Source: Mesostigma viride (Eukaryota > Streptophyta > Mesostigmatophyceae > Mesostigmatales > Mesostigmataceae). Taken from it: a stretch of 64,000 nucleotides of DNA. Below are positions 1,038-4,000 of this stretch, in pieces (the first letter of the stretch is position 1; the number at the start of each line of letters is the position of its first letter). Where the stretch lies: the NCBI GenBank assembly GCA_009746045.1, contig RPFO01000692.1, positions 991,082 through 1,055,081 on the forward strand, given 5' to 3'. The notes under the pieces were generated by a model that saw only the letters and a program-made list of their open reading frames with translations, was not told where the DNA came from and ran no database searches. The position numbers were made by a program, and so were the translations under genes.

Positions 1038-4000
1038 CTGGGCACCATCGCATGGTGTTGTGTCGACAGGGATAGACATCAGCGGTGTAGGCAGCACAGA
1101 CAATGTCAGCAAAGGAAAAGGCAGCAGGAACACCCAACAACAATACTGCGCGCACGGCTGCAGGCATGGCGGCCAGGAACCATGCGCTGATCCTGCGCCC
1201 AAGCGCATGGCGGCCAGGAACCATGCGCGGATCCTGCGCCCAAGCGCATGGCGGCCAGGAACCATGTGCTGATCTTGCGCCCAAGCGCATGGCGGCCAGG
1301 AACCATGCGCTGATCCTGCGCCCAAGCGCATGGCGGCCAGGAACCACGCGCGGATCCTGCGCCCAAGCGCATGGCGGCCAGGAACCATGCGCGGATCCTG
1401 CGCCCAAGCGCATGGCGGCCAGGAACCATGCGCTGATCCTGCGCCCAAGCGCATGGCGGCCAGGAACCATGCGCGGATCCTGCGCCCAAGCGCATGGCGG
1501 CCAGGAACCATGCGCGGATCCTGCGCCCAAGCGCATGGCGGCCAGGAACCATGCGCGGATCCTGCGCCCAAGCGCATGGCGGCCAGGAACCATGCGCTGA
1601 TCCTGCGCCCAAGCGCATGGCGGCCAGGAACCACGCGCGGATCCTGCGCCCAAGCGCATGGCGGCCAGGAACCACGCGCGGATCCTGCGCCCAAGCGCAT
1701 GGCGGCCAGGAACCATGCGCGGATCCTGCGCCCAAGCCAATGCTTGGCGGTGCAGGGCAGAAGCCGATGCCATGCCAAGGACGAGCCGAGCCTACAAGTG
1801 TGCGTGCGTGTCGTGTCAAGGGCTGCGATGTGGGGTGACCATGGCGGCTGCGCAGATGGTTGCAAGATATCCCATGGTTGAACCCATTCAAATAATCCCA
1901 TGGTGTAATCCATTTAAGAAATCCAGGAATACAGGGAGGGGGACGGAGCCTGGGAACATGGCTGCCCGACACACAATGCAACCATTCTCTCCCACCGGCC
2001 GCACACTTGTTGCACACGTGTAGTCAGAGACAAGAGCTGTTACACGCGCACGCCAACCATTGACAGGGCCATGCCAGATGCACTCCAGCATTCTCGCACA
2101 GGGATGCACACACACTTTTGGGGACCCAGGTGATTTCAGAAGACGCCCAAGTGGCCGAATCTTCATCAAAAGTCCTCAACATCACCATGACCTCACCCAG
2201 GCAAACCTAGATCTCCAGACAACCGCGCCAGCCAGCGTATCCACGGGCCCATATCATAACAAACACAGCAGACATGCACTACTATACTACTGTGATATCT
2301 TCATTAAATACATGTTACTAAAATAGAATATCTTCATTATACATTTACAATTAGCTTCCAAACATACAAGAGCCCCACCCTGGCCCTGAATAGCCGCGCA
2401 ACGCAAGAAGCGTGCCCTCACGGGTCGTCAGTGCGTGCGCCCACGTGAAAGAGGGGTGCACACTCACACGGGAACAGGGTCAGCTCTCACGCGAAAAAAG
2501 AGGGCGCGCTCACCGGGCATACCACTCGTTAACAAGAAAAGGGCGACAAGGGTACAGCACTCGTTAACAACAAAAGGGGCACGCCCACTCACTGGACAGG
2601 AAGACGCCCACTCATGGACGACAATGGTGCACACTCAGTACCAACAAAAAGGCGCGCCCACTCACTGGACAAAAAGGCGTCCATGTCGGCCGCGGCGCAC
2701 TGCTTGCGCATCTCGGCTGCGCTGGAGCCGGAGAAGGCGACGACAAAGTGGCGGACGCCATAGCGGGACTCCACCGCGCGGATGCCTTGCGCCGCATCCG
2801 ACCCACCCATCTTCGACATCTGGCAGGCAGCAGCGTGGGGGAGGGGGAGGGAGCGAGGCGGGGTGGTGATGGGGGGCATTAGATGGGTGGGTCGGGGGCG
2901 TTAGATGGGTGGGTGGGGGGACGGGGCACGAGGAATGGTTGGATGATGTCAATCTGGGCAACCGCCATCGGATACCATTGCTGCGAAGGGTGTCCCTGGG
3001 CCAAGGCATGTGAGCCCCACCACCACCTGCGCCATTTTCTCACCATCTATGTCTAATATGACATCCCTCGGGCCATCCCCAATCCTCGCTATTTTTTTAG
3101 CCCTGTTTCTGCCACACGCAAAAATGAAAGGTCATGCAGACTCCCGCCGCCATGCTGCGGCCATGCCGCCACCATGCCACAAGGCGGCACGGTAGCCCGA
3201 GTACAGTGTGGTGAGCAGTAGACATGGCTCGTCCCATCCGCAGGGTCCGGGTGATCGCATGCCCCAGCCCAGGGCCAAGACAGCTACCCAGGTACCCAGA
3301 GCAGCAAGGCAGCGTCTGTAAGCCCTAAACAGTTCGTATCATCCGTGCCTGCGCGGTGTCCCACACTACATGCTGTCGTTGCCCTGGTGGCGTCAAACCA
3401 CCAACATGGTAGCAACTAGGAAAGAGGCAAGGGCCACATACCTGCAGGTCCATGAGGACAATGTCGAAGATAGTGTCGGACAGGCTATCATGGTCCGGTA
3501 TTACCATCCTTCCCCACCCACGTACCTGCAGGTCCACGAGGACAATGTCAAAGATAGTGTCGGACAGGCTATCATGGTCCAGTACTACCATCCTTCCCCA
3601 ATCACGTACCTGTAGGTCCATGAGGATGATGTCAAAGACCGGCCCTCCCCCGCATGCCAGCCCCGCCCTCTCCTCCCTGTGCTCCAGCTCGGCTTGCACG
3701 GTGGCCACCGCAGCGGCACCATTGTCCACGAGCACTACCTCACGCGCGCCCATCTTGGTCAGCATTGTGCGCATAAAGGCCTGCACCACCGGGGAGTCCT
3801 GCAACGGGGGGTGGGGAGCATGCGCGTCGGTGCGCCGTACGTGCCCGCACACAGCCGCCGAGCATGGCACGTGGCAACCAACATGAGTGGCATGAAATCC
3901 TTGGTGCATACCTCCCCACCTGCAACCAACATGAGTGGCATGAAATCCTTGGTGCACACCTCCCCACCTGCAACCAACATGAGTGGCATGAAATCCTTGG

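Follow-up and report, generated by a model that had tools for sequence, protein, structure and literature searches.

Copies of exon ends beside 5' splice sites in Mesostigma viride, including an in-frame array at the receiver exon of a hybrid histidine kinase gene

In the window analyzed here, a stretch of 64,000 nucleotides from a 440-Mb assembly of Mesostigma viride, an exon that encodes the first half of a receiver domain is followed by two further copies of its own 3' end, each with a donor-like junction and all in one open frame. Are these copies a device for making receivers of different lengths, are they simply part of the exon, or are they duplicates that leave with the intron? We favor the last answer, with a probability of about 0.6: the array is probably a short tandem duplication straddling a 5' splice site, one of many in this genome, whose copies are mostly spliced out.

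The gene and the array at its receiver exon

The window contains a minus-strand gene of at least ten exons, running from 16003 to 397. In a self spliced alignment, a single frame of 1,617 residues crosses ten exons without a stop, built with the first of the three donors (donor 1, 3609) in the splice of the receiver exon. A HisKA domain (69.1 bits) and a HATPase_c domain (72.6 bits) lie within the first 944 residues after splicing, as expected of a hybrid histidine kinase (HK), and the receiver domain REC2 matches the Pfam profile Response_reg with 65.2 bits. REC2 is split over exons 7312-5400 (at its end), 3798-3610, 2819-2666, and 1037-397 (at its start). We take the acidic pair E-D, the phospho-acceptor Asp in MDLQ, the Ser/Thr in FSGS, and the Lys in SKP to be its Response_reg motif. 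No Rfam match was found in positions 1-26000 of the window, and a viral-contig search with the kinase domain gave two stretches that fit a pattern, neither of which was confirmed.

Repeats are abundant in and around this gene. Directly upstream of the first modelled exon, 16237-25486 holds about 330 copies of a 28-bp unit (9.2 kb), presumably within an intron of the same gene, and eight perfect telomere-like TTTAGGG units lie within an intron (15111-15166). Two repeats are in-frame within exons: a 51-bp (17-residue) unit present 4.5 times at 745-974, and a 6-bp unit at 6235-6407 that encodes a long Gly-Thr run. The intron directly upstream of the receiver exon carries 30 copies of a 48-bp unit (3874-5319), the sense-strand consensus of which reads TTGCAG, then GTGGGGAG, then GTATGC, and acceptor-like and donor-like motifs thus recur along that array. 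LINE-like pieces with reverse transcriptase, endonuclease, and zinc-knuckle matches are located at 33371-37005 and 41282-42211.

At the end of the receiver exon, Tandem Repeats Finder reports an array at 3434-3638 with a period of 84, 2.4 copies, and a score of 340. A pattern made of the exon end and its donor (up to three mismatches) has three matches in the window, at 3604-3633, 3520-3549, and 3436-3465, where 100 shuffles lead one to expect none; the score and this count together rule out a chance origin. Each copy consists of the last 27 nt of exon 3798-3610 and the beginning of the intron, 84 bp apart. The features are as follows, all on the minus strand.

3610..3798, minus strand: receiver exon, first half of REC2 (DSPVVQ...FDIILMDLQ); gene model, self spliced alignment, Response_reg
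3434..3638, minus strand: whole 84-bp array, 2.4 copies; Tandem Repeats Finder
3604..3609, minus strand: donor 1, CAG-GTACGT junction, taken as the default; homologous donor in four paralogs, U1 pairing
3553..3609, minus strand: linker 1, 57 nt, open frame, intron-like codon usage; sequence and codon usage
3526..3552, minus strand: copy 2 of the exon end, 27 nt, FDIVLVDLQ; sequence
3520..3525, minus strand: donor 2, CAG-GTACGT junction; sequence, U1 pairing
3469..3525, minus strand: linker 2, 57 nt; sequence, codon usage
3442..3468, minus strand: copy 3 of the exon end, 27 nt, FDIVLMDLQ; sequence
3436..3441, minus strand: donor 3, CAG-GTATGT junction (GTGCCC in paralog PA); sequence, U1 pairing
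2666..2819, minus strand: next exon, second half of REC2 (MSKMGG...FLS); gene model

The first-pass annotation had described two 84-bp repeats with GTAYGT donors, and these are indeed present, with GTACGT at 3609 and 3525 and GTATGT at 3441. The motif that it gave, FDIVLxDLQ, holds for copies 2 and 3 but not for the real exon, which reads FDIILMDLQ. The frame from the acceptor at 3798 is open through all three donors, as had been claimed, giving exon lengths of 189, 273, and 357 nt that are all divisible by three, and the arithmetic by which donors 1, 2, and 3 would add 0, 28, or 56 residues, each in phase with exon 2819-2666, is correct. The open frame is not limited to the copies, since it continues for 38 codons beyond donor 3. 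Nor is an open linker of 57 nt unusual, because 62% of the 57-mers sampled from introns of the HK family are open in a given frame, and a length divisible by three is expected in one case out of three by chance. The three donors pair almost equally well with U1 (-7.4, -7.4, and -7.8 kcal/mol for donors 1, 2, and 3), and therefore donor strength cannot separate them.

Exon or intron: codon usage, paralogs, and the receiver fold

The codon usage of the linkers is intron-like. Those of the window gene fall at the 0.6 percentile of exon windows and at about the 72nd percentile of open intron windows, and those of its closest paralog, PA (C1637, L006), fall at the 1.1 and 3.0 percentiles of exon windows and at the 79 and 87 percentiles of open intron windows; the linker GC3 is 21/38 versus 0.847 in exons. 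PA shares the array, with 94% identity over 168 nt, no indels, and an open frame in both genes. The similarity goes no further than the GT of donor 3; this donor reads GTGCCC in PA (U1 pairing of -6.8 kcal/mol), and the bulk of the remaining intron does not align. Between the two genes, the exon-like copies differ by five changes (four synonymous and one conservative), and all four codon changes in the linkers alter the amino acid.

The conservation of the 168 nt in itself might be read as a sign of coding, and we rejected this argument for the following reason. Among seven exons compared between the window gene and PA, four (ending at residues 394, 473, 1352, and 1403) differ by 3-10% and three by 25-31%, and divergence at fourfold sites reaches 0.375. 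Such a patchwork suggests gene conversion between the paralogs. At the four low-divergence donors, the similarity extends into the intron; after residue 473 it covers 101/108 aligned nt, including an in-frame TAG and indels, so that the first 110 nt of that intron are as well conserved as the array. Because homogenized patches run into introns in this way, the similarity of the 168 nt and the mostly synonymous changes in the exon-like copies are both weakened as evidence of coding.

Two older paralogs, PB and PC (contig C1956), also carry an intronic copy of the receiver-exon end, at shifts of 84 and 71, and in both of them an in-frame TAG follows soon after donor 1, before the copy. The receiver intron itself is at an identical place in all four modelled HK paralogs. 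In PB (L003, 1699 to 1783), the donor of the copy (CAG-GTAAGA, -11.0 kcal/mol) outpairs the real donor (GTATAG, -7.2 kcal/mol), with the TAG between them. On the strength of the intron-like linkers, the mosaic divergence from PA, and the stops in PB and PC, we treat the donor at 3609 as the one used by default and regard the copies as intronic, a working assumption rather than a proven state.

What would the longer forms mean for the protein? The Response_reg score drops from 65.2 to 63.1 bits with 28 extra residues and to 62.3 bits with 56, and in both longer forms the best Pfam match (profile 42-110) has its start at the last copy and extends across the following exon. The last copy and the next exon (MSKMGG) would together rebuild beta3 and the active-site loop, to judge from the profile alignment. 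With the match starting there, the extra residues would fall before beta3 and mostly lengthen that loop, probably a milder change than additional phospho-acceptor strands beside the active site. It had been proposed that the variants contain one or two more such strands; the placement of the Pfam match makes this an unlikely outcome, and what survives of that interpretation is the lengths and the phase. Isoforms with 0, 28, or 56 added residues are possible but unproven.

Exon-end copies in three gene families

Three more exon ends of the window gene, at 12664, 11829, and 2666, are copied into their introns:

12664..12787, minus strand: exon whose 3' end is copied into its intron; gene model, alignment
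12583..12617, minus strand: end of exon 12787-12664 repeated at shift 83, donor lost; alignment
11829..12066, minus strand: HisKA exon whose 3' end is copied; gene model, alignment, HisKA match
11719..11765, minus strand: end of exon 12066-11829 repeated at shift 91, donor included; alignment
2578..2610, minus strand: end of exon 2819-2666 repeated at shift 73, followed by donor GTGAGT; alignment

When positions 1-16100 of the window were scanned with the masked repeat arrays excluded, four blocks reached a score of 40, and they are the four copied exon ends.

To the window gene (W) were added the splice models of its three paralogs, a sample of 36 donors and 36 acceptors at nine shared introns. 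Copies were found at 15/36 donors and 4/36 acceptors without a filter and, with a low-complexity filter, at 14/36 donors, 4/36 acceptors, and 3/68 donor-like intronic GTs used as decoys, in four paralogs that are not independent of one another. When PA is excluded, the numbers are 11/27 donors versus 4/27 acceptors (p = 0.066). The donor of the receiver exon has a copy in all four genes. On the acceptor side, where copies are rarer, PB (L003) has exon starts copied upstream at about 1290 and 2535, into the introns that follow residues 1289 and 1403.

Two unrelated families served as controls. For the CCT chaperonins, 30 loci were cut from 58 matches, 29 were scanned (L035, a single-exon match, was excluded), and 22 had a donor above the threshold. 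Copies were present at 6/22 donors, 2/22 acceptors, and 2/35 decoy GTs (p = 0.045 for donors versus decoys in this family alone), a count that includes both L036, with a copy, and the near-identical L037, without one. A first CCT scan, which was unfiltered, used approximate edges, and had simple repeats among its matches, had given 12/29 on the donor side, 5/29 on the acceptor side, and 4/29 and 6/29 in intron-interior controls. For the kinesins, 20 exon ends were picked by rule from 129 matches before the sequence was read (the match ends inside the domain and is followed by a short open frame), and 17 had a donor above the threshold. Here, 4/17 donors and 0/14 decoy GTs had copies, the decoys being searched over shorter stretches (at least 150 nt) than the 400 nt used for the others; L076 (48/52 identical) was caught by the low-complexity filter and is uncounted. 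Pooled over the families, copies occur at 24 of the 75 donors versus 5 of the 117 decoy GTs (Fisher 3.6e-7) and versus 6 of the 58 acceptors of the HK and CCT genes (Fisher 0.0033). The excess is also seen in the unrelated genes alone, where 10/39 donors and 2/49 decoys have copies (p = 0.0045).

The copies lie 24-356 nt downstream (median 84), and only 8/25 shifts are divisible by three, 17/25 being out of frame, so selection for the frame is rejected as a general explanation. The copied exon part does not exceed 38 nt (median 25.5), and extending the queries to 70 to 120 nt of exon gave no longer copies; an exception is L078, where the longer query had its best match at the exon stretch -66 to -35 rather than at the exon end. 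In the clearest cases (W1352, PA473, and PC1352), the alignment exceeds the shift, which marks these as true tandem duplications. The limit on the exon side is sharp: among 30-mers of the HK genes, 12/32 at -30 have a downstream copy, falling to 1/31 at -45 and 0/27 at -60. At +90 to +150, 1-2 of 30-34 have one, and none of those starting from -150 to -15 has an upstream copy within 250 nt.

The donors of the copies are well preserved. A GT is retained at 24/26 homologous places, and 22/26 copy donors exceed the 90th percentile of intronic GTs. Within the aligned ranges, leaving out two near-duplicate copies and alignments that end before intron position +5, identity is 93/95 in the donor core, 245/295 in the exon part, 59/67 at +3 to +6, and 88/104 in the intron beyond. 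This contrast suggests that copy donors may be kept, although the donor excess is partly a matter of ascertainment, because alignments without a donor are more readily cut or missed. The exon-end copies at residue 394 of the window gene and of PA (W394 and PA394) have lost the donor. In the CCT pair L036 (C1641) and L037 (C887), the exon is identical at 264/264 bases and the start of the intron nearly so; the copy donor is present in L036 and replaced in L037, which indicates that, there at least, copies are changing now. The near-identical CCT stretches of C1641 and C887 are in opposite orientation and are perhaps haplotypes.

Could the peak at donors arise merely because copies beside a conserved exon are easier to see? 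A simple simulation (random uniform bases, uniform ages, and the four unit lengths 60, 84, 100, and 150) gave donors a detection advantage of 1.15 to 1.41-fold, compared with a raw excess of about 7-fold over the intron interior. We therefore rejected better visibility as the explanation, and the observed excess above this bias means that uniform duplication alone is not the whole story. A duplication that crosses a donor leaves the original donor intact and its copy in the intron, whereas one that crosses an acceptor adds a competing AG upstream. General knowledge of splicing thus offers a likely reason why donors would be favored over acceptors. The competing AG does not explain the excess over the intron interior, because duplications there should be equally harmless or more so. 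This leaves two possibilities: more frequent duplication of donor regions, or retention of their copies.

Competing readings and known systems

The reading that we prefer runs as follows. A segment of 84 bp, which takes in no less than the final 27 nt of the exon plus the following 57 nt, would have been duplicated into the intron. By default, the spliceosome would join donor 1 (3609) to the exon start at 2819, and both copies would leave with the intron. Exon-end copies at donors are seen in the sequences of three gene families, and they may be tolerated since the original donor stays functional and the duplicate falls in non-coding sequence. The in-frame step of 84 bp would then be a coincidence, and occasional use of donor 2 or 3 would add 28 or 56 residues to REC2, which, from the Pfam placement, would be most easily accommodated before beta3. 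The array thus appears to be an instance of a recurrent kind of duplication and not a special switch of the receiver.

Other readings must be weighed against this. If the exon truly ended at 3442, both copies would be coding and the receiver would constitutively carry 56 more residues before beta3. The alignment of W and PA, with no indel, an open frame in both, and an end at donor 3, is what such an exon would leave, the profile still scores 62.3 bits, and donor 3 of the window pairs with U1 as well as donors 1 and 2 do. We nevertheless regard a longer exon as improbable: the linkers do not resemble coding sequence, their four codon changes are all nonsynonymous, donor 3 is GTGCCC in PA, and PB and PC have an in-frame stop behind donor 1. 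Only slightly better placed, and still unlikely, is regulated use of the three donors, by which receivers with 0, 28, or 56 extra residues in varying proportions would tune phosphotransfer. Three near-equal donors in phase and an open frame kept in two paralogs are consistent with regulation. The stop codons of PB and PC, together with spacings elsewhere that take no account of the frame, argue against in-frame use as the reason why such copies persist. As an alternative-donor case, the receiver array is plausible but unproven.

The copies might also be kept across the genome as decoy or backup donors, acting in splicing control or in unproductive or stepwise splicing at AG-GT, and we give this the lowest standing of all. 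It would account for the retained GTs (24/26), for the 22/26 donors above the 90th percentile, and for a donor core with 98% identity where the exon part and the stretch beyond +6 have 83-85%, a pattern that pure relics need not show. The copy donor GTAAGA of PB outpairs the real one with U1, and the repeat units of PB and PC align at 79/99, while the best match beyond the first 90 nt of the intron scores only 26. Against this stand the ease with which donor-less alignments are missed, the lost donors of W394 and PA394, and the difference between L036 and L037 at the copy donor. A broader combined view, which we hold tentatively and as less probable than the preferred one, is that a quarter to a third of the sampled exon ends are echoed with a working-looking donor, that 5' splice sites are either hot spots of duplication or places where echo donors are selected as decoys or backups, and that the receiver array is a young in-frame case before decay of the frame. 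The recurrence of donor-straddling copies is a stronger and more novel result than the alternative-donor case of the receiver.

How do these copies compare with known arrangements? Like intronic minisatellites, of which the window is full, they lie head to tail, but the large arrays here are inside introns or exons, whereas the units described here cross the end of an exon and usually come in twos or threes. In tandem donor alternative splicing (GYNGYN and similar), usable 5' splice sites lie a few nucleotides apart. Two or more candidate 5' splice sites in a row are common to both situations, but here the spacing is 24-356 nt and an exon end of up to 38 nt is copied; to our knowledge, GYNGYN-type donors owe nothing to exon copying. 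We found no work on the proximity of two donors in the open-licence literature, and none of the open-licence papers listed, judged from titles and the beginnings of abstracts, concerns genome-wide copying of exon ends at donors, which is weak evidence of absence.

The closest relatives are found in studies of intron gain. Tandem duplication of AG-GT segments is a described route to new introns (Rogers 1989, Gao & Lynch 2009, and Hellsten 2011, as cited in PMC4974935), and cases in which segments with splice sites were duplicated in tandem to give new introns are described for Drosophila in PMC2891723. The likeness is a short tandem duplication that carries a splice site, CAG-GT being present in all three copies here, and the AG-GT of a copy could serve as a donor or an acceptor. 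In those cases, the duplicated exon stretch becomes a new intron, whereas here the donor edge of an existing intron has been copied into the same intron, and the receiver intron is shared by the four modelled HK paralogs rather than being absent from relatives. A potato RdRp gene described in PMC4974935 gained an intron by duplication of a unit that, as in our case, spans an exon-intron border. That event concerns the acceptor side of a single gene, while in M. viride donors are favored in three gene families.

In these papers, tandem duplication across splice sites is discussed as a route to new introns on the basis of a handful of cases. With a donor-straddling copy at a quarter to a third of the sampled exon ends, M. 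viride offers a large set of naturally duplicated 5' splice sites in a single genome. These would allow direct tests of how the spliceosome chooses among near-identical donors, of why the donor side exceeds the acceptor side, and of whether introns lengthen from the donor end.
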